DNA of 41,758 bases from a virus, in IMG/VR virus record IMGVR_UViG_3300035523_000130, positions 1 through 41,758 of that record; one strand, given 5' to 3'. Shown in pieces: positions 23,121 to 41,758 of the stretch. Position numbers and translations under genes: made by a program. Positions within the stretch are counted from its first letter, which is position 1. Each line of letters begins with the position of its first letter. The notes below the pieces were generated by a model that saw only the letters and a list, made by a program, of their open reading frames with translations, was not told the origin of the DNA and did no database searches.

Positions 23121-23305
23121 TTCTGCCCTTTCATTTGCCGTGCCTTGGCCTGCTTCACCAGCTTGCGGATACGGCGGCGCTTGTTCCGCAACTCCACTTC
23201 CTTCAATCTTTTTTCCTCTGCCTCCATGCGCTTTCTCAGCTCACGGAGACGATCAAGGCAATTGGCAGGGTCGCCTTGCATCCACTTGAACGGGGGCATT
23301 GTCAT
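23117..23305 (-). CDS. Small basic helical protein (62 aa)
   Basis: A 62-residue protein made almost wholly of a charged helix (LRELRKRMEAEEKRLKEVELRNKRRRIRK), probably a coiled coil, with a highly basic end. It overlaps both neighbours by 4 bases, giving translational coupling. It may bind nucleic acid. No family recognised. Confidence 0.7.
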   Translation of the reverse strand: MTMPPFKWMQGDPANCLDRLRELRKRMEAEEKRLKEVELRNKRRRIRKLVKQAKARQMKGQK

Positions 23306-23547
23306 GGCGCATTCATCCTGTCAGCTACTGCCTGGTCTTTTCCATCGGCAATGCGGCAACGAGCGGCAGCCACATCAAGGCTAGAAAGATCAACAAGCCA
23401 ATCAAACCAGAGCTTGAGCACCTCTTCATCATCAGCAGCAATAGCCGCCCGGATCGCAGCATCAACATCACGCCGCTCATCGGCTGACCACTCATGCCAG
23501 AAAGCTGCCAGCCCAAAGGCTTTGCTCAATCGTTTTCGATCAATCAC
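23302..23547 (-). CDS. Hypothetical early protein (81 aa, GTG start)
   Basis: An 81-residue protein, mostly helical and acidic (DERRDVDAAIRAAIAADDEEVLKLWFDWLVDL). The GTG at 23547 is chosen because a perfect AGGAGG lies 7 nt upstream (23555-23560); an ATG eight codons earlier would bury that site. It is the first gene after the iteron region and is coupled to the next gene. Function unknown. Confidence 0.72.
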   Translation of the reverse strand: MIDRKRLSKAFGLAAFWHEWSADERRDVDAAIRAAIAADDEEVLKLWFDWLVDLSSLDVAAARCRIADGKDQAVADRMNAP

Positions 23548-23570
23548 CGTCTGACCTCCTATCAAAATCA

Positions 23571-23812
23571 AGGTTGGGCGGAAAGGTTGGACGAGCAGAA
23601 GCCTTGATATGACTAGCTCTGTCTAACCTCCTAACCTTGTCTAACCTAAAAATAAAAACACTCACGCGCGCGTATACGTGCGTGCGCGCACCTACGCCCA
23701 CGCATGCGGGCGGTTGAGGTCGGACGAGGTTAGGAGGTCGGACGGATGCCCTATCCATGCGGGTCTTGGCTGTCCGACCTTTTCCGGGCCGTCTAACCTT
23801 GAGGTTGGACGG
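23571..23812. repeat. Iteron cluster with Z-DNA-prone tract: candidate replication origin
   Basis: A non-coding segment holding about 11 copies of a motif near AGGTYRGACGR in both orientations. Copies begin at 23571, 23584, 23620, 23629, 23638, 23717, 23727, 23735, 23771, 23790 and 23802. The middle copies form two blocks (23620-23647 and 23717-23745) at about 9-bp spacing, inverted relative to each other. Between them lie an A-rich stretch (23648-23660) and 29 bases of strictly alternating purine-pyrimidine (23663-23691). It directly follows the primase-helicase gene. Repeats plus A-rich DNA beside a replication gene are typical of iteron origins. Confidence 0.7.
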
Positions 23813-23834
23813 GATCACCGATCCCTGGTCAAAA

Positions 23835-26408
23835 CTAACCATAAACACCCTCCTCTTCCACAGCAGGAGTGCTACTTACTGATGGAGATACCGCTACCCA
23901 ATCAGCCGGTCTTTCGTAGTAGTAGAGGCGGTCACCATCGGGCTCTCGTCTCTTTGCCCAGCCGATGCGTTTCATGGCGATACCAATCGCCGTACTCATT
24001 TGTTTGCCCCGGTCCGCCTTCCCGATTTCGATCTTCAGGCAATCCACCAGAATGTCTTCAGTGGTCACCCTGAGTGCAGTCGAGCTTCTCAACCATCGCG
24101 TAATACGCGGCTGCCAGGGGTCGCCAATCTCACGATCCGCCTGCTCAGGATCAAACAGGCGTTTCTGCTCATCAGATGTTGGATGCCACCGCTCACCGGC
24201 CTGGAATAGATGAACCGCCTCAGCGAAGAGCTGATCGCGGTACTCCGCCAAACCCTCAAGATTGATTGCCTCGATTTCTTCTGTTTTCAGCGGCCAGAAG
24301 CGGGTATTCCCTGTGGTGTCCTTGAAATATTCATCCTGGTTGGTACTGCCACCAAACACGCCCTGACGCTTCCAGTCACGAGGAACCGTGTCATAGGGCG
24401 CCCGGAACCGGTCTGTCTGGCTTGAAACGAACGCTTTGATCCGCGTTGCCTCAGCTCGATTGAAAGCATCCAGCTCACCGATCTCATACAGCCACTTACC
24501 CTGGATCAACTGGTAGCAATCCTTGTTATTGAGATCGAGTACCGTGTCGCCATACCACTGGCCACCCAGGATGCGTAAAGCCGACGACTTTCCTCGAAAC
24601 TGCTTACCCTCAAAGATCGGCATAAACCGCATCTGGCAGCCTGGGTGATAAATCCGCGCCACCATACCGATCAAGAAGAAATGTCCTACCAGAGCCGTGT
24701 ATTCCGACTCTTTGACGCCCATGTAATCCGTTAGCCAGCTGCGCGTTCTGGTAATTCCGTCCCACGTCAATGCCCCGAGGTAATCACGTACCGGATGGAA
24801 TCGATTGTCTGAAGCGCATAGCGCCACGCCTCGGGCGATGTTCTTTTCGTTGCGCACCAACAATCGCTCGCACTGGGCCAACCAAAGGCCCAAGCGGAAG
24901 TCGTCATCAGGCTCCCACTCCCGGCCCTCCTCAAAGGCTCCAGGCCTTTCCCATGGCGCGGGCTTGCGCACCACGATCTTGCGGGCGAACTCATCGGCCC
25001 AGACCACGCCTTTCAAGCGAGGGTGATGCTTCAGAAATAGGTAAACGTTTTCCCGGCAATCAACCAGCAACCCATCCCGGTAAAGCAGCACCTGGCGCCA
25101 AGCGTTCTGATCTGCCTCAACGTCATACACTGGGCCCGCGCTAGCATCTGTTGGGGTATAAACCGCTTCCAACTGTTCTGGCGGGATCGCATCTACAGCT
25201 GCAGGAGGAGCAACCTTGACCGCACGCTCGCGCATGAAGGTGACCAAGGAATCGCCCGTGAGCCCTTCCTCGACTGCGTCCGCAATATCCCACCCGTCCG
25301 GCTTTTCAAGAGGCAGAGGAATGCGGATGTTCCAGACCGTGCAGCCAATCTTATGCAGGTGCCCATGCACCTTGGCCATCGTCTTTACGCCTGGCTGATC
25401 AGCCTCTGGCAGTAAGGGTTTCTCAGCTTGTGCAGCAACCAAAGCATCTTGCTTTAGCTTCTTCAATTCTTTGACCAGGGCCGACTTCTCATTACCCTTG
25501 GGCATGCCAGCCAGACGGCCGTCATCAATGATGGCCTCGGTTTCCTCAGCATTCAGCGGAACCCGCTTGCCATCGCAATCTGCCCAAGTGATCACCGTCC
25601 GGCCAGCCAAGGGGGACCAATCAACCTTATCAACCGCCTTGCCACCACCCGGCCACGAAACTACGGCCAGGTCAGGGCGCTCAACATCACCGGCATCGGC
25701 GCACTTCTCGCCCTCAACAACCAGTACTACCGTATCAGGCTTTGCTGCCAACCGGTCCAGACCGTACAGAGGGCGCGGCTGGGGAAAGGAAATCCACTTC
25801 CAATCCCGCTTCGACTCATCACCCTCAAGATGGCACCAAGACAACGGCAGTGTTTCCTTGCCGCCGTCACTCGTCTTGAACCGATACACATACCCAAGCG
25901 CCCTGCCCTCGCCATCGCGATAGCACCAGGTACGCTCAGGGGTGCCACGGAACATGTGTGCCTTTGGTGGCTCAGGCGCAACATCTGGAATAGGCAGGAT
26001 AGGAAGCCAGACTGGCTCATCTTTCTTGGCCTTTACCGACTCCCGCCTCACGGCAGCGGGCGGCTTGATTACCCCAGTGGCCCTGCCTGATTCAGGAATA
26101 TCCGCACCCAGCTCGCGGCAGGCATCAAGAAAACCAACACCCCTGTAATTCATCAGGAAATTGATGGCATTTCCATTAGCACCGCAGCCAAAGCAGTTAT
26201 AAATCTGCTTTGATGGGCTCACCTTGAACGATGGCGTACTTTCTGTATGGAAGGGGCAGCAGGCCTGAAACTCAGCGCCGGATTTCTCAAGCGCCACATA
26301 GCCGTCGATGACCTTGACGATATCAACGTCTTCCAGAAGCGCATCAGTATCAACCCGTGGGTGATCCACTCCCCCTCCGGGTATAGCTACCTTTTTGCTA
26401 TCAGTCAT
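23835..26408 (-). CDS. Primase-helicase fusion (CHC2, Toprim, VapE-like)
   Basis: An 857-residue replication protein. The N-terminus has a DnaG-type zinc-binding domain (Cys50/Cys51, His54, Cys72, Cys75 in CCPFH and CFGCG). A Toprim domain follows, with Glu232 in VVEGEKCADAGD and acidic residues in ITWADCDG near 277-279. The C-terminal third resembles virulence-associated E (VapE) ATPases: DYLGALTWDGITRTRSWL, Walker A in EGKQFRGKSSALRILG, then YEIGELDAFNRAE and GVFGGSTNQDEYFKD. It would unwind and prime phage DNA, presumably at the iteron region just downstream. Confidence 0.93.
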   Translation of the reverse strand: MTDSKKVAIPGGGVDHPRVDTDALLEDVDIVKVIDGYVALEKSGAEFQACCPFHTESTPSFKVSPSKQIYNCFGCGANGNAINFLMNYRGVGFLDACRELGADIPESGRATGVIKPPAAVRRESVKAKKDEPVWLPILPIPDVAPEPPKAHMFRGTPERTWCYRDGEGRALGYVYRFKTSDGGKETLPLSWCHLEGDESKRDWKWISFPQPRPLYGLDRLAAKPDTVVLVVEGEKCADAGDVERPDLAVVSWPGGGKAVDKVDWSPLAGRTVITWADCDGKRVPLNAEETEAIIDDGRLAGMPKGNEKSALVKELKKLKQDALVAAQAEKPLLPEADQPGVKTMAKVHGHLHKIGCTVWNIRIPLPLEKPDGWDIADAVEEGLTGDSLVTFMRERAVKVAPPAAVDAIPPEQLEAVYTPTDASAGPVYDVEADQNAWRQVLLYRDGLLVDCRENVYLFLKHHPRLKGVVWADEFARKIVVRKPAPWERPGAFEEGREWEPDDDFRLGLWLAQCERLLVRNEKNIARGVALCASDNRFHPVRDYLGALTWDGITRTRSWLTDYMGVKESEYTALVGHFFLIGMVARIYHPGCQMRFMPIFEGKQFRGKSSALRILGGQWYGDTVLDLNNKDCYQLIQGKWLYEIGELDAFNRAEATRIKAFVSSQTDRFRAPYDTVPRDWKRQGVFGGSTNQDEYFKDTTGNTRFWPLKTEEIEAINLEGLAEYRDQLFAEAVHLFQAGERWHPTSDEQKRLFDPEQADREIGDPWQPRITRWLRSSTALRVTTEDILVDCLKIEIGKADRGKQMSTAIGIAMKRIGWAKRREPDGDRLYYYERPADWVAVSPSVSSTPAVEEEGVYG

Positions 26409-26411
26409 GAA

Positions 26412-26921
26412 TCAGCGCTTGCCCGCCTTGGCCTTGTCGGCGGCATGCTTTTGCCGAGCCTCATTCCGCACCGTCATCAAAGTTTCAGATGACTCCTGAA
26501 CTGCCTTTTCAATCCTGGCCAGCTCTTTATCATCAACAAAGTTGTCCTTATCGAGCGCCTTTCGTATCTGCTCAGCAAGCTGACCATCATGGGAAAATAG
26601 TTCAGCCACCAGGCTCAGCAACTTGTCACTATCAACGTCATCACCATGGGGCAAGCGAACCGATACTCGGTTCAACCGCCACATCAAGGCATCAACGGCC
26701 AGATCACCCGCATCCGGCTTGGTCGCATCCAGAAACTCAACGATCTCTGCAAAGTTTTCCAGCGTCGTGTGGTGCGTCTCAATGTCAGGCCGCAACTTGT
26801 TCCGCAGTACATTGGGGGAAATGCCCATACGCAGGGCCAGTGCCTCAATACCACCCGGGTAATCCCTCGCGGCAATGTAAAGCGCGTCATGGACGCCAAT
26901 TTCGCTATATCGCTTAACCAC
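26412..26921 (-). CDS. CII-family phage regulatory protein
   Basis: A 169-residue protein matching phage regulatory CII-family proteins: DALYIAARDYPGGIEALALRMGISPNVLRNKLRP (HTH, about residues 11-45), ETHHTTLENFAEIVEFL, and a charged helical C-terminus. The start is GTG at 26921 with GAGGAG about 8 nt upstream. It lies between the cro operon terminator and the primase gene. It probably activates a lysogeny or integrase promoter; the target site was not identified. Confidence 0.8.
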   Translation of the reverse strand: MVKRYSEIGVHDALYIAARDYPGGIEALALRMGISPNVLRNKLRPDIETHHTTLENFAEIVEFLDATKPDAGDLAVDALMWRLNRVSVRLPHGDDVDSDKLLSLVAELFSHDGQLAEQIRKALDKDNFVDDKELARIEKAVQESSETLMTVRNEARQKHAADKAKAGKR

Positions 26922-30332: not shown

Positions 30333-30950
30333 ATGAATGCACCCGCACCAACCATCATCCCCGCCATTGGCGCTACCGTCCCTGGTGGCTTCTTTGCTGG
30401 CACCATTCTGATTGATGATCAACGTTATGGCTTGGCAGTACCGCCCAAAGCCTTGGGGGAACACAAGCCCACCATCTGGATTCCTAACTACAAGGATATC
30501 CCTGGTGCCAAATCTTTCTACGACGGCCTAGCTAATACCCGGGCAATGGCTGAGGCTGGCAGCAAGCTGGCCCAGTGGGCGCTTGAACTGGAAATCGATG
30601 GTTGCACCGATTTCTACATCCCAGCTCAAGATGAGAAGGAAATCATCTACCGGGTATTCAAGCCTGGTACTGCTAAGAACTCCCAGTACGCGCGCTCCGG
30701 CATCAACTTGTCAGCCCTGCCGCCGACTCGTCCTTATTCGCTGGAAAACCCTGCTCAGACGGTTATCGAGGCTTTCCAGGAGGGAGGTGTCGAGGCTTTT
30801 GAAGCTGATGCCTACTGGACATCCACGCAGCACGCAGCCATTTCCTATTTTGCCTGGTACCAGGGTTTCAGCTACGGCGTCCAGTACGGCCTCAACACCA
30901 ACCTCAAGCTGCCTGCTCGCGCCGTCCGCAGATTTCATTTACCCCTTTAA
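30333..30950 (+). CDS. DGR variable protein 1 (C-type-lectin-like, DUF1566/Lcl type)
   Basis: A 205-residue target protein. The N-terminal 150 residues contain an Ala/Pro-rich start, AGTILIDDQRYGLAVPP and LEIDGCTDFYIPAQDEKEIIY. The variable C-terminus has YWTSTQHAA, then AWYQGF and KLPARAVRR, the layout of DUF1566 (Lcl) domains that adopt a C-type-lectin fold. Residues altered relative to the template are I170, Y172, F173, G178, S180, Y181, V183, Y185, G186, L187, L191 and V198; N188 and N190 keep the template codon. No signal peptide. The ATG at 30333 has AAAGGA 7 nt upstream; a longer frame is rejected. Confidence 0.9.
   Translation: MNAPAPTIIPAIGATVPGGFFAGTILIDDQRYGLAVPPKALGEHKPTIWIPNYKDIPGAKSFYDGLANTRAMAEAGSKLAQWALELEIDGCTDFYIPAQDEKEIIYRVFKPGTAKNSQYARSGINLSALPPTRPYSLENPAQTVIEAFQEGGVEAFEADAYWTSTQHAAISYFAWYQGFSYGVQYGLNTNLKLPARAVRRFHLPL
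30826..30933 (+). repeat. Variable repeat VR1
   Basis: A 108-bp segment at the 3' end of target gene 1 aligned without gaps to TR 32032-32139. I count 17 differences, all at TR adenines (A to G, T or C). The GC-rich 3' part (CTGCCTGCTCGCGCC) is fully conserved and would serve as the initiation-of-mutagenic-homology region. Confidence 0.96.
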
Positions 30951-30982: not shown

Positions 30983-31471
30983 GTGCGCGTCAATCAAAAC
31001 GAGTCGATAACGCTGGCTGTTGCTGGCGCTGATGTCACCATCCCGGCGGCTACTTTGGCTGATCTGTGGATCAAGAAGCTATTAGCCAGCAGCGCGCAGA
31101 TGACTGATAGCAGCATGCTTATCAAGCAACCCCCTCTAGCCGATGGAGAGATTTACCTCGGCGCCATCATCACTCCCAAGATTCGTAAACACATCATCTT
31201 GCTGCCCGGTGAAAACGCTGATGCCAATTGGAAGCACCAAATGGAGTGGGCAGCCAGCATAGGTGGCCAGCTTTTCGACCGAGTAGAGGGGGCACTTCTC
31301 TTTGCCACCATGCCCGAGCAATTCAAGAAAGAAGCGTACTGGACCCGCGAGCAGCCCGCAGCCATTTCAGGTTGTGCCTGGTACCAGGGTTTCACCAGCG
31401 GCCTCCAGAGCAGCAGCGACACCGACGGCAAGCTGCCTGCTCGCGCCATCCGCAGCGAATCCATTGAGTAA
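30983..31471 (+). CDS. DGR variable protein 2 (DUF1566/Lcl type)
   Basis: A 162-residue second target, GTG start at 30983 with AGGAG upstream. IILLPGENADANWKHQMEWAASIGGQ and FDRVEGALLFATMPEQFK are typical of the family of lectin-fold DGR targets. The variable end begins after AYWTREQPAAI and has AWYQGF and KLPARAIRS. Altered residues include P125, I128, G130, C131, G136, T138, S139, L141, S143-S145, D146, D148 and G149. It shares only the fold and the VR with protein 1, so the two have distinct scaffolds fed by one template. Confidence 0.9.
   Translation: MRVNQNESITLAVAGADVTIPAATLADLWIKKLLASSAQMTDSSMLIKQPPLADGEIYLGAIITPKIRKHIILLPGENADANWKHQMEWAASIGGQLFDRVEGALLFATMPEQFKKEAYWTREQPAAISGCAWYQGFTSGLQSSSDTDGKLPARAIRSESIE
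31351..31455 (+). repeat. Variable repeat VR2
   Basis: A 105-bp segment aligned without gaps to TR 32033-32137. I count 17 differences, all at TR adenines. The 3' conserved GC-rich part matches TR exactly up to CGCAG. Confidence 0.96.
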
Positions 31472-31501: not shown

Positions 31502-31873
31502 ATGGCACTCCACACCGAGCTACCGATACATAAGACAGCCTACGACCTGCTGGACATTGTCGTGGATCTCATAAAAAACATGCGCAGGGACTTTAAGCAC
31601 TCCCTGGGCGGTGAGTTGCGCGATGAATGTCTGGCAGTCCTAGTGTCCATCTTTCGAGCCAATGTCGCCCGAGAAAAAACGCCTCATCTGGACCAGCTCA
31701 TTGAGCATATTCAGGTAGCAGTTCTCCTCTTGCGCCTTGCACGGGATAAGCGATTCATTTCGACCGAGCAATTCGCTCGAACGATGCCGCTCACCCAAAG
31801 TATCGGTAAACAGGCTGTGGCATGGCGCCGTTCCGCCGCATCGCCCGATTCACGGGGGTCAAGGCTCCCATGA
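31502..31873 (+). CDS. avd: DGR accessory variability determinant (Avd-like)
   Basis: A 123-residue basic, all-helical protein of the four-helix-bundle type found in DGRs: YDLLDIVVDLIKNMRRDFKHSLGGELRD near the N-terminus, then FRANVAREK and HIQVAVLLLRLARDKRFISTEQFA. Avd forms a pentamer that binds the RT and the TR RNA and is needed for retrohoming. Its place between VR genes and TR matches the usual DGR order. The ATG at 31502 lacks a strong ribosome-binding site. The last few residues could be a read-on beyond the folded domain. Confidence 0.85.
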   Translation: MALHTELPIHKTAYDLLDIVVDLIKNMRRDFKHSLGGELRDECLAVLVSIFRANVAREKTPHLDQLIEHIQVAVLLLRLARDKRFISTEQFARTMPLTQSIGKQAVAWRRSAASPDSRGSRLP

Positions 31874-32031
31874 CTGTGCGAATTCTTGATCTGGTCGTGC
31901 CGCTGGCTCACAAGGCCACCGCTATGTGCATCACGGAGACTACCGGCAGCCTGCCGGAACAGTCCGGCGCAGTTTCCTTGCTGATCGGCCAGAACGGACT
32001 TCGGCAGGGCGACGTAGATAGCACGATAGGT
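31874..32031 (+). other. Non-coding leader between avd and TR
   Basis: 158 bases with no convincing gene and several GC-rich inverted repeats (for example around 31944-31970, where GGCAGCCTGCC is followed by GGAACAGTCCGGCG). In other DGRs the functional RNA extends beyond TR on both sides and folds to bind Avd-RT, so this is probably part of the template RNA. Confidence 0.5.
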
Positions 32032-32139
32032 CGCAGCACGCAGCCAATTCAAATTATGCCTGGTACCAGGATTTCAACAACGGCAACCAGAACAACAACA
32101 ACACCAACAACAAGCTGCCTGCTCGCGCCATCCGCAGAT
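32032..32139 (+). repeat. Template repeat TR
   Basis: A 108-bp template containing about 37 adenines. Read in the VR frame it encodes A-N-S-N-Y-A-W-Y-Q-D-F followed by nine AAC codons among ACC, GGC and CAG, then KLPARAIRR and a stop. AAC is the codon that adenine mutagenesis diversifies most widely without creating stops. TR lies upstream of, and partly inside, the RT reading frame. Confidence 0.96.
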
Positions 32140-33255
32140 GAAACACGGCACCACCCTGCTGATCTTTTTATTGCACTGGTACAGGCCTATTACGCCTGCC
32201 GGGAGAACAAACGCAATACCGAAAGCGCCCTGGACTTTGAGCAGCACCTAGAGCGAAACCTGTGCAACCTTTACGATGAACTGGTCGAGGGAACCTATCG
32301 TCCTGGTCGCAGCATCTGCTTTGTTGTCACCCGCCCGAAGCCTCGCGAGGTATGGGCTGCCGACTTCCGGGACCGCATCGTTCACCACCTGCTCTACAAC
32401 CATGTTGCGCCACGGTACTACGCCAGCTTCATCGCCGATTCCTGCGCTTGCATTCCGGGCCGGGGCACCCTCTACGCCGCCAAGCGGCTGGAATCAAAAG
32501 TGCGCAGCATTACCCAAAACTGGAGCAAGCCAGCCTTCTATCTCAAGATGGATGTGGCTAACTTCTTTGTCTCCATCAACAAGCAGGTTCTATATGAACT
32601 ACTAGCAGCCCGAATCACTGAGCCCTGGTGGTTAGGGCTGACCGATACCATCCTGTTTCATGACCCGCGCCAGAACTTTGAGTATAGGGGCCGTATCGAT
32701 CTGCTTGGCCTAGTGCCGGAACATAAGCGCCTGACCAACCAGCCAAGTCATCTAGGGCTACCCATCGGCAACCTGTCCAGCCAATTCTTTGCCAACGTTT
32801 TTCTCGACGTACTGGATCAGTTCTGCAAACACAAGATCGGCGCTAAGCACTACATCCGCTATGTGGATGATTTTGTCCTTCTGCATGAATCACCACAGTG
32901 GCTAAACGATGCGAAAGAGCAAATTGAAGCTTTTGTTATCAAACGCCTCGGTCTTCGCATCAACCCCACCAAGACCATTCTTCAACCAATAGATCGTGGG
33001 ATTGATTTTGTCGGGCACGTCATCAAGCCATGGCGTACTGAACCCCGCAAACGTACCGCCAACGCGGCCATGACACGGGTCATGACAGTACCTACCGATT
33101 CTTTGTTTGAAACCGCCAACAGCTACTTTGGCTTGTTCCGCCAAGCCACCGCCAGCCACCAGCAACGGTGCCGACTGGCAAATCACCTTCGCCGACGAGG
33201 CCACACCATCAACGGCGCCATCACCAAAACCTACCGCAGGAGAAACCACGCATGA
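32056..33255 (+). CDS. DGR reverse transcriptase
   Basis: A retron/group-II-like RT. Conserved blocks are RPKPREVWAADFRDRIVHHL (fingers), FYLKMDVANFFVSIN (catalytic Asp), GLPIGNLSSQFFANVFLD, and YIRYVDDFVLL with YVDD at 32860-32871. The SQ in place of QG in motif 4 is the DGR signature linked to low fidelity. The start is uncertain: the only downstream ATG before the conserved domain is at 32056, inside TR, and the frame stays open to 31822. If 32056 is used, TR is translated as a Thr-rich leader. The stop overlaps the ParB-like start (ATGA). Confidence 0.93.
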   Translation: MPGTRISTTATRTTTTPTTSCLLAPSADETRHHPADLFIALVQAYYACRENKRNTESALDFEQHLERNLCNLYDELVEGTYRPGRSICFVVTRPKPREVWAADFRDRIVHHLLYNHVAPRYYASFIADSCACIPGRGTLYAAKRLESKVRSITQNWSKPAFYLKMDVANFFVSINKQVLYELLAARITEPWWLGLTDTILFHDPRQNFEYRGRIDLLGLVPEHKRLTNQPSHLGLPIGNLSSQFFANVFLDVLDQFCKHKIGAKHYIRYVDDFVLLHESPQWLNDAKEQIEAFVIKRLGLRINPTKTILQPIDRGIDFVGHVIKPWRTEPRKRTANAAMTRVMTVPTDSLFETANSYFGLFRQATASHQQRCRLANHLRRRGHTINGAITKTYRRRNHA

Positions 33256-35792
33256 ACGCACCTACCCCGGCTGGCGCCTTGGCGCTGCCAAGCATCCCCC
33301 TGGTCGACATTACCCCCTCGCCCACCAACCCCCGCAAGCATTTCGACGAGGGCGCTCTAGCTGAACTGGCAGCTACCATCAAGGATCATGGCGTCATCCA
33401 GCCCATTACTGTGCGCCCTAACCCCAAGGGCGAACCGCTTTATGAAATTGTGGTGGGCGAGCGGCGCTGGCGTGCTTCCCGGCTCGCTGGCATGACGGAC
33501 ATTCCCGCCTTCTGGCGCGAACTCACCGACCAGCAGGTGCTTGAGATCCAGATCATCGAAAACCTGCAGCGCAACGACGTGCATCCCCTGGAAGAAGCCG
33601 AGGGCTACCGTTTACTGATGGAAGAGCACGGCTATACGGTCGAACAGATCGCCAACAAGATCGGCAAGGACTTGCAGAAGAAGTCCTACGTCTATGCCCG
33701 CCTCAAACTGCTGGACCTATGCCAGGAAGCCCGCAACATCATGTTCGAGCGCAAGCTCGATGCCTCCACCGCCCTGCTAATCGCCCGCATCCCGACCCCA
33801 GGCTTGCAGAAACAGGCACTGAAGCAAATCGCGGTCGAAGGCGCAGAACCAATGTCCTACCGGGCTGCCAAAAACCACATTCAGCATAACTTCACCATCA
33901 GCCTCAAACAGGCTACCTTTAGCCTGACCGATGCCAGCCTGGTGGAAACCGTGGGCAGCTGCCAGGACTGCACCAAGCGTAGCGGAAATGCCCCTGAGCT
34001 TTTCGGCGATACCGACGATGCAGACGTCTGCAGTGACACCAAGTGCTTCGATGCCAAGAAAGCCGCCAAGCAACAGAAGCTGATTGATGAAGCCTCCGCC
34101 AACAGCATCCCCATTTTGCGCGGTGACGATGCCAAGGCTGTCATGCCATGGGGCCGTAATACCCTTGACGATGAAAAGTACATCGACCTGGACGATGTGG
34201 CTGATGGTGATGTAGAGGAACGTACCTACCGCGAGATCCTTGGCGACACTGCTCCAGTGTCAGCCCTCATTGAGTCGAATGGACACCAAGAGAAGGGCAT
34301 TCTGATTGAAGTAGCAGAACCCTCTGCCTTGGCCGAGGCCTTACAAAAGGCAGGCTGGAAGCCGCAAGAGCAACCCGAGGAAAACACTGGCGACACGCCA
34401 CGCTTCCCGACAGTTCGCGTCATTACCCCAGAGCAGATCGAGGCCGAGCACAAGGAACGGGAAGCCAAAGAGCGCGAGAACAAGATCGAATCCGCATGGC
34501 GCGAACGGCTGATTGATCAGTGCCTATTTACCCTACCCGACACCCTGTTCGACCAGGACACCCTGGAAAAGACTATCAAGATCTTTGCTGGCCAATGGGT
34601 CGACATGGAAGCCGAGTTTTCTGGCATCGACGAGGATTTAGTTGCTAAGTACGGTCACCACATCCCAGAAGAGTGCGACCAAGAAGAAGCAGCGGCCACA
34701 TTGATCAAAGCGATGCAGCAGTGGGATCTCGGCAAGGTGATCACCTACCTGTTCGAGTCCATCATTCGACAACGCTCCGAAAAGATCGTCGGCTTCTACT
34801 GGAAAGATGGGCAGCAATTCCGCGATCAGCCCAATACCACCATGGCACTGGCCGAATTCCTTGGCATTGACCATACCCGCATCCGCGCTCAGGTAGTTTC
34901 AGAGATCAACGGCGATTCCCAGCCGAAAACCAACGGGAACCCCTCTAAAAAGCCCAAGAAAACCACCAAATCGACCCCTTCTGGCCTTGCCGAAACTGCC
35001 CCTACCCCAAAAATGGCTGCGCCGGCGGCGAGGATAGGTGACGCGGAGGATGGACTGGAAGCCCGCCCGAACATCCGCTACGCCCTATGGGGCTCCGCTG
35101 GCTGGATAACCTGGAGCGGTAAGGGGAAGAAGCCCGCTTGGATCGAGCAATGGCTGGCGAATGGAAAAACCCTGGAAGACCTGGAAGCAAAGGCAGATCC
35201 AGCGCCCGCTGCGCAGGCGAACGAAAACCCCACCTCCGACGCGACCGGGGATAACTCCGGCGAAGAAGAGAATCTAGCCCAGGCTGCGCCTGGGAACGAG
35301 TCGCCTGTGGCGACGGGTGCAGACTCAACCAATGGCGACCTCTTCGGCCAGGTCAGCGGCGACTGGCCCCAGCCCAACGAGCACGGTGTCTATGCCGCCG
35401 ACCAGGCCGAGCTGATCACTATCGACACGAAGAAGGCCAAGATAGAGGGCTACGTGCTGCAGATCGGCGCCGAGTCCTGGATCTGGGCCGTGGACACAAC
35501 GCGCAAGGGAGCAACCACCGGAGGCAGTTCGTCCCCCCTCACCGCTCACCAGGTCACCGCCACGCGTGATGGAGCGATCGCCATAGTCGGCCAGGAAGCC
35601 TCTCAGCACGTCTACCGCTGGATCGATAGCGATGGCATCAATGCTGACTTCAAGCGCATCAAGGCCTGGGCCGATGAGCTGCTGGTGAATGGCGAGAACG
35701 CCGAGTGCCTGGCTAAGAAACCAGAGGAGAAGAAAGCCACGATCTCCGTGCCCGTCAGTGAGTGGCCCTTCCCCACGGGGAGCCGGCCATGA
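33252..35792 (+). CDS. Very large ParB-like protein (846 aa)
   Basis: An N-terminal ParB/Spo0J domain (about residues 12-110) contains PSPTNPRKHFDEGALAEL, VGERRWRASRLAGM and ENLQRNDVHPLEEAEGYRLL. An HTH follows (YTVEQIANKIGKDLQKKSYVYARLKLL) and a Cys-containing segment (SCQDCTKRS ... CSDTKCFD, about 230-265). After that comes an unusual long region with charged helices and two low-complexity linkers (about 560-610 and 640-710). Ordinary ParB proteins have about 300 residues, so the C-terminal half is extra. It may bind the palindromes listed here. No ParA-like gene is present. The ATG at 33252 overlaps the RT stop. Confidence 0.85.
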   Translation: MNAPTPAGALALPSIPLVDITPSPTNPRKHFDEGALAELAATIKDHGVIQPITVRPNPKGEPLYEIVVGERRWRASRLAGMTDIPAFWRELTDQQVLEIQIIENLQRNDVHPLEEAEGYRLLMEEHGYTVEQIANKIGKDLQKKSYVYARLKLLDLCQEARNIMFERKLDASTALLIARIPTPGLQKQALKQIAVEGAEPMSYRAAKNHIQHNFTISLKQATFSLTDASLVETVGSCQDCTKRSGNAPELFGDTDDADVCSDTKCFDAKKAAKQQKLIDEASANSIPILRGDDAKAVMPWGRNTLDDEKYIDLDDVADGDVEERTYREILGDTAPVSALIESNGHQEKGILIEVAEPSALAEALQKAGWKPQEQPEENTGDTPRFPTVRVITPEQIEAEHKEREAKERENKIESAWRERLIDQCLFTLPDTLFDQDTLEKTIKIFAGQWVDMEAEFSGIDEDLVAKYGHHIPEECDQEEAAATLIKAMQQWDLGKVITYLFESIIRQRSEKIVGFYWKDGQQFRDQPNTTMALAEFLGIDHTRIRAQVVSEINGDSQPKTNGNPSKKPKKTTKSTPSGLAETAPTPKMAAPAARIGDAEDGLEARPNIRYALWGSAGWITWSGKGKKPAWIEQWLANGKTLEDLEAKADPAPAAQANENPTSDATGDNSGEEENLAQAAPGNESPVATGADSTNGDLFGQVSGDWPQPNEHGVYAADQAELITIDTKKAKIEGYVLQIGAESWIWAVDTTRKGATTGGSSSPLTAHQVTATRDGAIAIVGQEASQHVYRWIDSDGINADFKRIKAWADELLVNGENAECLAKKPEEKKATISVPVSEWPFPTGSRP
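34019..34032. repeat. Copy 4 of 14-bp palindrome (perfect TGCAGACGTCTGCA)
   Basis: A perfect palindrome inside the ParB-like gene, in the codons just before the CSDTKC motif. Many chromosomal and plasmid parS sites are short palindromes near or in par genes. Confidence 0.6.
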
Positions 35793-37941: not shown

Positions 37942-38819
37942 AGCAGAAGCCGAGATCCAGGAACGAAAAAAACGCCCTTAAGCAGTTTCTCCGGCTCTAT
38001 CCTGATCGCCCTATCAATGACATCACCGGGCCAGATATCGCTGAGGCCCTGGAAGACAAGTCAGCGGCTACAGCAAACCGCACTATCTCGATAGTGAGGG
38101 CTGCGCTCAACCTTGAGCATGAAGCCCAAAAGATCGGCAAGCCACCCAAAATCCCCACCAGAAGCGTCAGCAATGCCAGATTGCGCTGGCTGACTCGGGC
38201 TGAGTGGGATCGCCTCTATAAAGCCCTTCCGGCCCATATCAAGCCGATGGCCAAGTTTGCGGTATCCACAGGATTGCGCCAGGCCAATGTATTTTCATTA
38301 CGCTGGGCCGATGTGGATATGGGGCGCCGCGTGATGTGGGTTGAAGCAACCCAGGCCAAGGCCAGGAAGGCTATTGGCATTCCTCTGTCGGACGACGCGA
38401 TGGAAGCCTTGGCTTCTGTTAGTGGACAGCATGAGGATTTCGTTTTTACCTACCGAGGAAAACCTGTCGAATCAGTCAAAACAGCCTTTGGCAAAGCCCT
38501 GGCCAGGGCCGGCCTTGGTCAATGGGTTGCTGCAGACGATCCCAAGGATGAAAACGACAAGGTATTTGAGCCCAACACCACCTGGCACGATTTACGTCAC
38601 ACCTGGGCAAGCTGGCATGTGCAAGCCGGAACACCTCTGGCCGTGCTCAAGGAATTAGGTGGTTGGGCTACAATGGATATGGTTCTGCGCTATGCACATC
38701 TGGCGCCGGACCATTTGGCTTCCTGGGCGAACAATGCCACAAAGTACGCCATAGGAAATCAGGAAACCCAGGCAGCCTCGGTAGCTCAGTGGATAGAGCG
38801 ACCCCCTCCTAAGGGGTAG
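37749..38819 (+). CDS. Tyrosine-recombinase integrase, ends inside tRNA-Arg
   Basis: A 356-residue site-specific recombinase. The N-terminal arm-binding region (LYKVEDIWYVYITPP) is followed by a core-binding domain (about 50-130) and the catalytic domain. Catalytic residues are Arg177 (STGLRQANVFSLRW), His280 and Arg283 (WHDLRHTW), Trp306 and Tyr315 (LRYAHLAP). The GTG at 37749 has GGAG about 8 nt upstream. The last 14 codons (VAQWIERPPPKG and two before) are read through the 5' half of the tRNA gene, so that tail is set by the attachment site and is unlikely to matter. Confidence 0.95.
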   Translation: MSLYKVEDIWYVYITPPKGGQRIRRTTGTSDKKEAQRIHDELKAELWNRKVSGSYLSDALTRWLKQKPRSRNEKNALKQFLRLYPDRPINDITGPDIAEALEDKSAATANRTISIVRAALNLEHEAQKIGKPPKIPTRSVSNARLRWLTRAEWDRLYKALPAHIKPMAKFAVSTGLRQANVFSLRWADVDMGRRVMWVEATQAKARKAIGIPLSDDAMEALASVSGQHEDFVFTYRGKPVESVKTAFGKALARAGLGQWVAADDPKDENDKVFEPNTTWHDLRHTWASWHVQAGTPLAVLKELGGWATMDMVLRYAHLAPDHLASWANNATKYAIGNQETQAASVAQWIERPPPKG

Positions 38820-38888: not shown

Positions 38889-39458
38889 GTGGCTGATTCG
38901 GAAGAAGCACTTCCGCTGGAGCAGGAACTCTTCTTGGCCAAAGCCGAGCTTCGCGACTTGAAGCGTACTGTACTGGCACTGCGAGAGGCCATGGAGCAAA
39001 CCTGCCACGATGCCCGCAGCCAGGTTTTGCATGCCACGCAAGGTGCTGCAACAGAAATTTCCCAGCTAAAAACAACAATCAGTAGCCTCCGTGACGCTCT
39101 TGAGCTTGCCAGCCAAGAACGAGAAAAAGCCCTTCAGCACGAAAGAGCACTGGCTCATCAGGAGTCCCTCCAGCTCAAGGCAACGGCCTCCGCACTGAGG
39201 GATGAGCTTGAGCGGACAAAAGAGGAAAATGAATCGGTGACACAACGGACAGTCGCCACCTCCCTTGCCGAAATAGGGCAACTCAAGGCGACCGTCGCTT
39301 CATTACGAGAGGCACTGGAACTCGCCTCTTTTGATAAAGAAAACCTTCTGCAAAAAGAACGACTCCTTTGTGCAGAAGAGTCAGAGCAACTACGCCAGAC
39401 CATTTACCAGCTCAGGGAAGCCTTGGAAGGCTCCCGCCATCAGGACACGACCCCATGA
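38889..39458 (+). CDS. Host coiled-coil protein (189 aa)
   Basis: A 189-residue chromosomal protein that is almost all coiled coil, with recurring pieces of the form QLK-[TA]-T-[IV]-[AS]-SLR-[DE]-AL-E (near residues 58, 97, 135 and 167), about 38-40 residues apart. GTG start with AGGGGA about 10 nt upstream. Its stop overlaps the cyclase start (ATGA), so the two are one operon; it could be a scaffold or regulator of the cyclase. Confidence 0.8.
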   Translation: MADSEEALPLEQELFLAKAELRDLKRTVLALREAMEQTCHDARSQVLHATQGAATEISQLKTTISSLRDALELASQEREKALQHERALAHQESLQLKATASALRDELERTKEENESVTQRTVATSLAEIGQLKATVASLREALELASFDKENLLQKERLLCAEESEQLRQTIYQLREALEGSRHQDTTP

Positions 39459-41758
39459 GTACTTCTGTCCCGGAAAAGCGCAGCACCAAAGACACGGAAA
39501 AAGAAAGCTCATCTGCCCTGCAAAAGCGGCGCCTGCGCCATGCAGAACTGCTACTGGAAGTTACCCGCCGCATGGCCGGCTACGAAACTCTGGATGAGGT
39601 TTTGCAGGCGCTGGTAGAAATGACGACCCAGGAACTGAATGCTGAACGCGGCTCCCTGTTCCTCAATGACCCGGATAGCAACGAACTGTATTCCCGTGTT
39701 GCCCAAGGCAATATCCAGCGGGAAATCCGTCTGCTTAACAACAGCGGCATCGCTGGTTACGTTTTCACTACGGGTGAAGCCCTGATCATTCAGGATGCCT
39801 ACTCGGATGATCGCTTCAACCGGTCCATTGATGAACAAACCGGTTTCACTACCCGGAACATTCTTTGTGTACCAATCAAGACCGTTAAGGGAGAAGTCAT
39901 CGGTGTCGCCCAAACACTGAACAAACGGACGGGCAAGTTTTCCCGGCAAGACCTTAACCTTCTTGAAGCCATGACCAGCCAGGGCACGCTGGCTTTGCAA
40001 AGCGCGCAGTTCATTGAGCGTATGAAAGCCATACGGCGTCAGGAGATGGAATTCATTGATGTGGTTTCTGAGGTCACCGCCGACATCAAACTGGGATCAT
40101 TGCTGCAAAAGGTTATGGGCGAAGCGACACGCTTGCTTAACGCCGAACGTTCCACCCTCTTTCTTAATGACGAAAAGTCCAATGAGCTGTGGTCTGAGGT
40201 GGGGCAAGGACTTGAGTCCATGCAGATCAGATTACCTAACCACGTGGGCATAGCCGGGGCGGTATTCAGCTCGAGCAAGTCCATCAACATTCCCTACGCT
40301 TACGCTGACCTGCGTTTCAATCCCGCTTTCGACAAGAAGACCGGTTACTTCACCCGCTCGATCCTTTGTGTCCCCATCATCAACAAGCATGGCAAAACCA
40401 TCGGTGTTACCCAGGTTCTGAACAAGCGTGGTGGTCCATTCACCAATGAGGACGAGTCCCGGCTGCGTGCGTTCACCGCACAAATTTCCATAGCCCTCGA
40501 AAACGCCAAGCTGTTTGCCGACGTTCAGTCGATGAAAAATTACAACGAGGCTATGCTCGAATCCATGTCCAATGGCGTAGTGACATTGGATGAAAGTGAA
40601 CGGATTGTGACTTGCAATGCGGCCGGCCTTCGTATCCTGCGAACGCAACCCCAAGCGATCCTGCAAAAACAGGCCTCCGAGTTTTTTGCTGGTGCAAATA
40701 CGTGGCTTCAGGAAAAGATTCAGCGCGTCGGAGCAAGCCAGGTTTCCGAACTGACGATGGATGCCAGCTTGATTTTTGGTGAGGCCCCCCTTTCCGTTAA
40801 CGTCACAGTCCTGCCTCTTCAATCCACCGAAAAGAAACGCATTGGCTCCATGCTGCTGCTGGAAGACATCAGTAACGAGAAACGCCTCAAATCAACCATG
40901 TCCCGTTACATGGACCCAGGCATTGCCGACAAACTGGTTGCAAATGGTGCAGAGATGCTGGGGGGCCAAAGTGTTACGGCCACCGTTCTTTTCTCTGACG
41001 TGCGCAGCTTTACAACGATCACCGAACAGCTTGGTGCCCAAGGCACGGTTGCCTTGCTCAATGAGTACTTCACATTGATGGTGGACTGCATCCAGCGCGA
41101 AGAAGGGATGCTGGACAAGTTCATTGGTGACGCCATCATGGCGGCATTCGGTATTCCCGTGCCCCACGAGGACGACACGGACCGGGCCGTACGTGCCGCT
41201 GTTGCAATGATGAAAGAACTCCATCAATGGAACAAGCTACGCGTGGCCGATGGCAAGTTACCCGTGGATATTGGTATTGGCCTGAATACCGATCAAGTTG
41301 TCTCCGGCAATATTGGCTCGAAGAAACGCATGGACTACACCATCATCGGTGACGGTGTTAACTTGGCGGCCCGCCTGGAGTCAGCTTGCAAACAGTATGG
41401 CGCCCATATTCTTGTTAGTGAATTCACCTACAAGCAACTCAAGGGCACTTACTACAGCCGAGAAATGGACGTGGTCATTGTCAAAGGCAAGACCAAGCCA
41501 GTGTCCATCTACGAAATCCTTGATTACCACACCGAAGAAACCTACCCGAATCTCAACGAAGCATTGCGCCAATTCAAATCAGGGCTGCAGTTCTACCGGC
41601 AGCAACGCTGGGATGAGGCCATGTCAGCTTTTGATGAAGTACAAAATCTGAACCCGGCCGACAAGGCTGCTCTTATTTACCGCGAACGATGCCAGCACCT
41701 CAAGCAACAGCCTCCTGGTAAGGATTGGGATGGCGTCTGGGTGATGGAGTCCAAATAA
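39455..41758 (+). CDS. Class III adenylate/guanylate cyclase with two GAF domains
   Basis: A 767-residue soluble signalling enzyme. GAF 1 spans about residues 40-190 and GAF 2 about 215-365, both with LNAERSTLFLND-type openings and R[NS]ILCVPI. A PAS-like region follows (375-480), then the cyclase domain (510-690). Metal-binding Asp are in LFSDVRSFT and FIGDAIMAAFG; DYTIIGDGVNLAARLES carries the transition-state Asn and Arg. The C-terminus looks like a short TPR-type helical repeat (LRQFKSGLQFYRQQRWDEAMSAF). Makes cAMP or cGMP on ligand binding to the GAFs. The ATG at 39455 overlaps the upstream stop. Confidence 0.93.
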   Translation: MSTSVPEKRSTKDTEKESSSALQKRRLRHAELLLEVTRRMAGYETLDEVLQALVEMTTQELNAERGSLFLNDPDSNELYSRVAQGNIQREIRLLNNSGIAGYVFTTGEALIIQDAYSDDRFNRSIDEQTGFTTRNILCVPIKTVKGEVIGVAQTLNKRTGKFSRQDLNLLEAMTSQGTLALQSAQFIERMKAIRRQEMEFIDVVSEVTADIKLGSLLQKVMGEATRLLNAERSTLFLNDEKSNELWSEVGQGLESMQIRLPNHVGIAGAVFSSSKSINIPYAYADLRFNPAFDKKTGYFTRSILCVPIINKHGKTIGVTQVLNKRGGPFTNEDESRLRAFTAQISIALENAKLFADVQSMKNYNEAMLESMSNGVVTLDESERIVTCNAAGLRILRTQPQAILQKQASEFFAGANTWLQEKIQRVGASQVSELTMDASLIFGEAPLSVNVTVLPLQSTEKKRIGSMLLLEDISNEKRLKSTMSRYMDPGIADKLVANGAEMLGGQSVTATVLFSDVRSFTTITEQLGAQGTVALLNEYFTLMVDCIQREEGMLDKFIGDAIMAAFGIPVPHEDDTDRAVRAAVAMMKELHQWNKLRVADGKLPVDIGIGLNTDQVVSGNIGSKKRMDYTIIGDGVNLAARLESACKQYGAHILVSEFTYKQLKGTYYSREMDVVIVKGKTKPVSIYEILDYHTEETYPNLNEALRQFKSGLQFYRQQRWDEAMSAFDEVQNLNPADKAALIYRERCQHLKQQPPGKDWDGVWVMESK

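Follow-up and report, generated by a model that had tools for sequence, protein, structure and literature searches.

Directly 3' of the primase-helicase gene of a temperate phage lies a candidate replication origin, in which mirrored sets of short repeats (iterons) enclose a tract of strictly alternating purines and pyrimidines (R/Y). Its anatomy, its association with the initiator gene, the mirrored symmetry of its flanks, the homology of the initiator and, for part of the family, conservation of the tract at the level of base class are shown by the comparisons reported here. On balance, and without any replication or binding data, we lean towards a two-sided origin of the self-loading-helicase kind represented by SaPI and P4, in which the alternating core switches to Z-DNA. 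Binding of the iterons, loading of the helicase rings, the Z transition, strand opening and a bidirectional start are all inferred. The DNA analysed, called the window throughout, is IMG/VR record IMGVR_UViG_3300035523_000130 with a length of 41,758 nt, and the phage it represents carries terminase, portal, head, tail and integrase genes.

Anatomy of the candidate origin

The motif AGGTYRGACR occurs in the whole window at 10 exact sites and at 9 further sites with one mismatch. Nine of the exact sites fall inside positions 23548-23811, together with the one-mismatch site at 23571; the tenth exact site, at 38818, is roughly what chance would provide. With seven fixed and three two-fold positions, about 0.004 such sites are expected per 265 bp when both strands are counted, so the density is far above chance. 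Two degenerate middle copies bring the number of repeats to 12: AGGTTAGG is found at 23727-23734 and its reverse complement at 23630-23637, each completing a three-copy block with steps of 8-10 bp. These blocks, 23620-23647 on the minus strand and 23717-23744 on the plus strand, form an inverted pair with 33-nt arms that are 79% complementary. Between them lie the A-rich AAAAATAAAAA (23648-23658) and the strictly alternating CACGCGCGCGTATACGTGCGTGCGCGCAC (23663-23691, 29 nt), the latter being the sole alternating run of at least 13 nt in the window. The features are as follows.

23302-23547, minus strand: small gene on the far side of the candidate origin, probably starting at GTG, which weakly matches PHROG 29193 (unknown function)
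23548-23811, no strand: candidate origin in full, its alternating core and A-rich patch set among 10 AGGTYRGACR sites and 2 degenerate middle copies
23548-23557, minus strand: outer iteron AGGTCAGACG, sharing bases with the probable Shine-Dalgarno region of the gene that follows (GTG at 23547)
23571-23580, plus strand: outer iteron AGGTTGGGCG, one mismatch
23584-23593, plus strand: outer iteron AGGTTGGACG
23620-23647, minus strand: inner block with iterons at 23620-23629 and 23638-23647 (AGGTTAGACA) and degenerate AGGTTAGG at 23630-23637
23648-23658, no strand: A-rich patch AAAAATAAAAA, 11 nt, candidate unwinding patch
23663-23691, no strand: strictly alternating purine-pyrimidine run, 29 nt, Z-prone
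23663-23708, no strand: full alternating tract including interruptions
23717-23744, plus strand: inner block with AGGTCGGACG at 23717-23726 and 23735-23744 and degenerate AGGTTAGG at 23727-23734
23759-23767, minus strand: AAGACCCGC, an element of the AAACCCGC type that separates the inner block from an outer iteron and recurs in relatives
23771-23780, minus strand: outer iteron AGGTCGGACA
23790-23799, minus strand: outer iteron AGGTTAGACG
23802-23811, plus strand: outer iteron AGGTTGGACG

A previous reading of this DNA from sequence alone had described about 11 AGGTYRGACGR-like repeats in two orientations, a central pair of inverted blocks and, between these, an A-rich tract next to a strictly alternating 29-nt tract. 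All of this held, with 12 repeats now counted (10 AGGTYRGACR sites and 2 degenerate copies) and a broader, interrupted alternation continuing to 23708. The extent it had given, 23571-23812, had to be corrected, since the repeats reach 23548 and thus pass that left limit by 23 bp.

Searches for other elements gave little. No Rfam family matched at E<=0.1 in 23200-24200, no sigma-70-like promoter was found in 23400-24000, and the single terminator-like match (5 pairs) is at chance level (0.6 expected). GC skew shows no switch at the candidate origin.

The presumed initiator

The adjoining gene encodes a fusion of primase and helicase, for which two features are relevant here.

23835-26408, minus strand: primase-helicase, 857 aa, presumed initiator, with CHC2 zinc finger, probable TOPRIM region and VapE/PriRep1-type helicase
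23904-24176, minus strand: presumed iteron reader, the C-terminal domain of the initiator (residues ~745-835), made of helices and then two strands

The structure model (mean pLDDT 86, pTM 0.52) comprises the zinc-finger domain, a middle part at the TOPRIM position, the helicase and the C-terminal domain. The TOPRIM assignment rests on position and on this model, as no Pfam match was obtained. By sequence as well as by fold, the best solved match is 7pds, PriRep1 with dsDNA (hmmsearch E 5e-86; Foldseek E 4e-28, TM(target) 0.73), and the primase-helicase is related to PriRep1 of SaPI5. No plasmid Rep family appears among its Pfam or PDB sequence matches. The model predicts a C-terminal fold that would be compatible with a winged helix; that this domain binds the iterons is inferred, as binding data are lacking.

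Across the loci, the similarity of iterons follows that of the C-terminal domains, with a partial rank correlation of 0.32, a value reached in 0 of 200 label permutations; the other domains give 0.25 and 0.25. Pairs with helicase identity >75% and locus L097 were excluded, and L060 had no repeated 7-mers. Being only slightly above the other domains, this covariation is a weak hint of a link that remains possible. Binding of the repeats by the CII-like protein (26412-26921), which had also been suggested, stays conjectural, as no evidence for it arose.

The module in related phages and prophages

Relatives were collected by a protein search, yielding 36 viral loci, and by alignment, from which the best 80 of 525 confirmed bacterial-genome relatives and the best 80 of 589 viral ones were kept; this choice tilts the sample towards closer relatives. 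After five partial matches (L037, L103, L105, L110, L142) had been left out of the 201 relatives fetched, there were 197 sequences with the window included. Removal of four without downstream sequence and one with runs of N left 192, and the grouping of near-identical loci resulted in 163 clusters, used below as non-redundant loci with the window counted.

Past the primase stop codon, most of the relatives inspected follow one plan: an outer iteron, an element of the GAAACCCGC type, an inner iteron block and the alternating tract come first; a short AT-rich patch follows, and then block, element and outer iterons again in mirrored form. The iterons vary by clade, AGGTTGGACG being that of the window's clade and GGTATGGAA, GGTTAGGAA, GTGGGACAG, GGGACATTG and others occurring elsewhere; tract and layout stay. 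In Pseudomonas and similar phages the module lies ~470-490 bp further out, past a small gene. Among named phages, Pseudomonas phage LPPA36 has a clear alternating tract. The tracts of Acidovorax phage Aval (39/49 steps) and Variovorax phage VarioGold (weaker, 37/49 steps) are each the best of their stretch; the flanks of Aval failed the inverted-repeat test. Marinobacter phage PS3 shows facing iterons and a 14-nt run, the latter not being the best window of its stretch.

The placement of the tract is far from random. The best 50-bp R/Y window of a locus lies between 30 bp before and 600 bp after the primase stop codon in 117 of 163 loci, compared with 10.2 expected by area; 9 loci are ties and 37 have it elsewhere. 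L012, whose stop codon was misplaced, was counted as a miss in this test. Tract composition, symmetry and breaks, as well as the R/Y set of the Z-energy estimate, refer to those 111 of the 163 clusters whose window score was >=39, and weaker loci are not described by these statistics. In 103 of the 111 tract-bearing loci the inverted repeats of the flanks beat all 50 shuffles, which shows that the flanks are mirrored.

A search that did not depend on the gene gave the same picture. Using the triple iteron of one clade as query in viral contigs, we obtained 27 loci, all of which have an alternating run >=12; an inverted partner lies 73-103 bp away in 26 of them, and a primase of the window's family adjoins 26, the remaining contig stopping 26 bases past the repeat. 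Twelve of these 27 contigs were already among the relatives from the protein search and alignment, and some are near-duplicates.

The tract is not universal, as the 37 of 163 loci with a better R/Y window elsewhere already indicate. Burkholderia phage Mica has no such module beside the gene, a Corynebacterium phage has facing iterons without the alternating tract, and a Paenibacillus phage shows only a weak tract (38/49 steps). The low-GC relative L075 carries a T-rich spacer where the tract would be, and in the AT-rich relative L157 the alternation is TATA-like with poor Z energy. Of 369 genomes drawn from one class, 19 matched, of which the 8 weakest or already known loci were left out of the downstream reading. 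Among the 10 family matches with readable downstream sequence a clear tract was seen solely in L237; several of the other matches are distant homologues or cut contigs. Altogether, the comparison with relatives that the sequence-only reading had proposed shows that the module accompanies the primase-helicase gene even in phages and prophages that have diverged widely. Its placement of the replication start beside this gene is hence supported by comparison and not by experiment, and the start itself remains unshown.

Side observations were made on two parts of these loci. The GAAACCCGC-type element between outer iteron and inner block occurs in loci with quite different iterons, and its reader is unknown; AAACCCGC with <=1 mismatch is present on the left in 42% and on the right in 32% of the halves of 111 loci, compared with 4% of random 70-mers. 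In L040, L042 and L150 (Acidovorax/Variovorax type) a small frame overlaps the primase end on the downstream side, and the peptide it apparently encodes has, when read by eye, QQTRR and CGAVAGKS..HAPMT-like motifs.

What the alternating tract conserves

In 11 independent close pairs of loci, the tract differs by 87 transitions and 26 transversions and the flanks by 89 and 86 (Fisher p=8e-6); all 14 qualifying pairs give 113:37 for the tract versus 117:107 for the flanks. The excess of transitions is seen at CpG sites (p=3e-4) as well as at non-CpG sites (p=0.02), and 6 of the 9 tract indels are of even length. These pairs were restricted to tracts near the gene with few gaps and identity >=0.68, a restriction set after a null result: 132 overlapping pairs, mostly of Pseudomonas phages with weaker tracts, show no excess, the transition share being 0.608 in the tract and 0.596 in the flanks. 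Outside the Pseudomonas group, the tract is thus conserved at the level of base class (R or Y).

Where the alternation breaks, class runs of three (208) outnumber runs of two (158), compared with 1814 and 4265, respectively, in control stretches of the same loci. Breaks thus tend to keep the phase, which shows coherence and not its cause, as substitutions in an alternating sequence would give the same effect. At the breaks AA is scarce (23 seen, 48 expected) and TT is not (25 seen, 22 expected). Which base is used within a class is free: YR steps within the tracts follow composition, with 1188 CG steps seen versus 1211 expected and 282 TA steps versus 265; since TA is found at the frequency predicted by composition, the Z energy is not finely optimised.

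With a mean GC content of 68% versus 58% for the loci (n=111), the tracts are GC-rich, and in four of five locus-GC bins tract GC exceeds the upper bound of the bin. Most of the spacer between the iteron sets is alternating and GC-rich, and its AT patch is short, measuring 11 nt in the window. This patch keeps to a fixed side: the right side, meaning 3' in the sense of the primase gene, is richer in AT in 85 of 111 loci and the left in 11, and the 20 nt to the right of the tract have an AT content of 60% (versus 45%; n=111).

A selected hairpin or priming structure in the tract was considered separately and rejected. The fold energy does not differ from that of R/Y-preserving shuffles (mean z 0.03, n=111, p=0.77), which makes such a hairpin unlikely.

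Z-DNA propensity

Strict alternation rich in CG and CA/TG is one criterion for a Z-forming element, and the 29-nt run fulfils it. Based on dinucleotide energies from the Z-DNA literature, we estimate that the tract of the window would flip at a superhelical density of about -0.041, the lowest threshold in the window, the best elsewhere being -0.046. A density of about -0.041 is stronger than the free supercoiling usually quoted for cells. By the same estimate, 125 of 163 loci reach their lowest Z threshold in the region 3' of the primase gene. The Z-DNA-prone core claimed by the sequence-only reading is thus confirmed as a propensity of the sequence, which recurs in relatives; formation of Z-DNA itself has not been shown.

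Other genes in the window

Away from the candidate origin, the window holds a diversity-generating retroelement (30807-30931, 31331-31455, 31502-31873 and 31822-33255), in which a reverse transcriptase (RVT_1, PHROG 1423) and an accessory protein resembling bAvd accompany three copies of a 125-nt repeat. If 32013-32137 is taken to be the template, an A in the template underlies 22 of the 33 mismatches to one of the remaining copies and 22 of the 34 to the other, so that one template seems to serve two variable repeats. An 874-residue ParB-like protein (33168-35792, plus strand) combines ParB_N and ParB HTH domains with the C-terminal DNA-binding motif of H-NS (residues 648-673), an arrangement that is new to us. 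After the integrase, an open frame (39368-41758, plus strand) with GAF, PAS and adenylate/guanylate cyclase domains runs off the end of the window. Going by the resemblance of this GAF/cyclase frame to a bacterial protein, the DNA past the integrase is likely to be host sequence beyond the prophage end.

Proposed mechanism and alternative readings

In the mechanism we favour, the primase-helicase from the adjoining gene would bind the iterons via its C-terminal winged-helix-like domain and build two opposed rings, one per mirrored half-site, each half-site comprising an outer iteron, a AAACCCGC-type element and a three-iteron inner block. Between the rings would lie the mostly GC-rich, strictly alternating tract with the short AT-rich patch at one side, and selection would keep the alternation itself. 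Negative supercoiling or torsion driven by the initiator may then flip the tract towards left-handed Z-DNA or another torsion-absorbing form, the junction beside the AT patch would be the place of first strand opening and the entry point of the helicase rings, and the primase half would prime both forks. We consider a B-to-Z role the most likely because a simple melting or hinge element is not expected to be GC-rich.

The most serious alternative, which is possible, is that the tract belongs to the origin but stays right-handed, acting as a deformable hinge rich in YR steps, as a spacer of fixed length between rings, or as a stretch for entry or priming by the helicase-primase, without any Z-DNA. 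In its favour, no other arrangement holds more of the flexible YR steps than alternation does, TA is no rarer than composition predicts, the low-GC relatives L157 and L036 retain alternation despite poor Z energy, and the spacing of the inner blocks is 73-103 bp in all 26 loci of the iteron-first search that have a partner. However, TA/CA and AT-rich sequence would be expected of a hinge or melting element, whereas the tracts are GC-richer than their loci (68% vs 58%). A hinge or spacer also need not keep phase at breaks, although substitutions would tend to do likewise, and no priming hairpin is seen beyond the R/Y pattern. The repeats might instead be an operator through which the primase-helicase or a regulator of the phage governs the operon that follows, with replication starting elsewhere. 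The region indeed lies between co-directional genes, the last iteron runs into the start of the gene beyond it, and terminal iterons beside a start codon recur in 42 of 72 loci. We consider this reading unlikely, as no sigma-70-like promoter was found in 23400-24000, overlap with the start codon is no commoner than on the mirrored control side (41 of 76), and mirrored repeat blocks beside an initiator helicase gene are the layout of SaPI and P4. On the same counts (42/72 versus 41/76) we do not claim that a terminal iteron doubles as a ribosome-binding site.

Translation of 23540-23848 or an equivalent frame, which would make the repeats coding and had been named as the observation that would refute the sequence-only reading, was examined in relatives and is not supported. 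A stop-free frame of 88-103 codons does span the region in 18 of 18 checked loci of the window's iteron type; this is partly explained by the fact that strict R/Y alternation rules out stop codons whatever the frame. Nine pairs, some of them not independent of each other, were compared by codon position: differences at the three positions number 54/69/44 to the left of the tract, 37/31/29 within it and 71/55/72 to its right, without third-position excess, whereas the primase shows one (175/153/573). Indels of 1, 2, 4, 5 and other frame-shifting lengths occur, and the frame has no family match. Thus, although the frame is open, the codon-position and indel evidence leads us to reject the coding reading, which is very improbable. 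Hardly more credible is the tract as a functionless by-product of mutation, through dinucleotide slippage or CpG hypermutation. It could draw on the slightly high lag-2 identity (3096 seen vs 2972 expected of 5016), on the richness of the tract in CG, CA and TG, and on the lack of a transition excess in the Pseudomonas-dominated set. Yet the lag-2 excess is merely 4%, the position of the tract is fixed within the mirrored layout in >100 loci, and transversions are rarer than in the flanks both inside and outside CpG (11 pairs).

A bolder version of the Z-DNA reading, which we are mildly inclined to doubt, is that these loci represent a widespread class of phage and prophage origins with a dedicated Z-DNA or torsion-switch core. 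Selection would then hold the R/Y phase over ~55 bp while the letters, and even the flanking iterons, get replaced, and a B-to-Z transition driven by the initiator or by supercoiling would set the position of strand opening. If true, the replication of bacterial DNA would include a functional Z-DNA element. AT-rich DNA is where an origin is expected to open, and >100 related loci hold a mostly GC-rich alternating core there. That different letters occupy the same place in >100 related phages and prophages suggests that DNA shape, perhaps that of Z-DNA, is what matters, and the better preservation of base class than of bases in close pairs outside the Pseudomonas group is the signature expected of a DNA-shape element. 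The natural variants in letters, GC content and iterons offer a ready series for asking whether Z-DNA acts in bacteria, and the fixed layout could help in finding the origins of prophages that lack annotation and in deciphering the iteron code of PriRep1-type helicases. We found no description of a GC-rich alternating core in such origins in the literature searched, a search whose scope left out most subscription journals.

Comparison with known origins

Origins of the RK2, pSC101 and R6K type consist of short direct or inverted repeats with a winged-helix initiator and an AT-rich DUE. The candidate origin resembles these iteron plasmids in having many short repeats, both direct and inverted, beside an AT patch, and differs in that its presumed initiator is itself a helicase-primase and its core is alternating and mostly GC-rich.

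Phage P4 likewise has a primase-helicase fusion, the alpha protein, and its crr lies directly 3' of the alpha gene with type 1 repeats facing inverted ones; P4 replication requires two separate sites. The crr spacer, in contrast, is T/A-rich and not alternating (<=29/49 steps), the ori1 region reaches 35/49 steps versus 36 for the whole P4 genome, and neither crr nor ori1 has an alternating run >=11. The criterion for a P4-type origin, a type 1 iteron with a T/A-rich spacer, is thus not met, as the iteron of the phage is different and its spacer is alternating and GC-rich.

The SaPI origins are two iteron sets around an AT-rich region. In the SaPI family the iterons immediately follow the helicase gene and are recognised by a C-terminal domain (PMC7581432, citing Ubeda et al. 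2007); in the SaPI/Cch2 system two hexamers are apparently bound, and for the SCCmec Cch2 homologue the isolated C-terminal domain bound its site (PMC7581432). SaPI and PriRep1 provide the best match of the helicase in sequence and fold, and their iterons, too, directly follow the helicase gene. Of the criteria for a SaPI-type origin, a PriRep1/D5-type SF3 helicase encoded beside it and two sets of iterons just past the helicase gene are fulfilled; of the AT-rich region between the sets a short patch is present, and iteron binding by the C-terminal domain and autonomous replication from the site would belong to such an origin too. Differences concern the spacer, which in the phage is mostly GC-rich and strictly alternating with a short AT patch only, the iterons themselves, and the primase half, which starts with a CHC2 zinc finger, whereas the SaPI primases are AEPs (PMC7581432). 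An iteron origin beside the gene of a self-loading helicase is a kind already known, and it is to this kind that the candidate origin of the phage is most similar.
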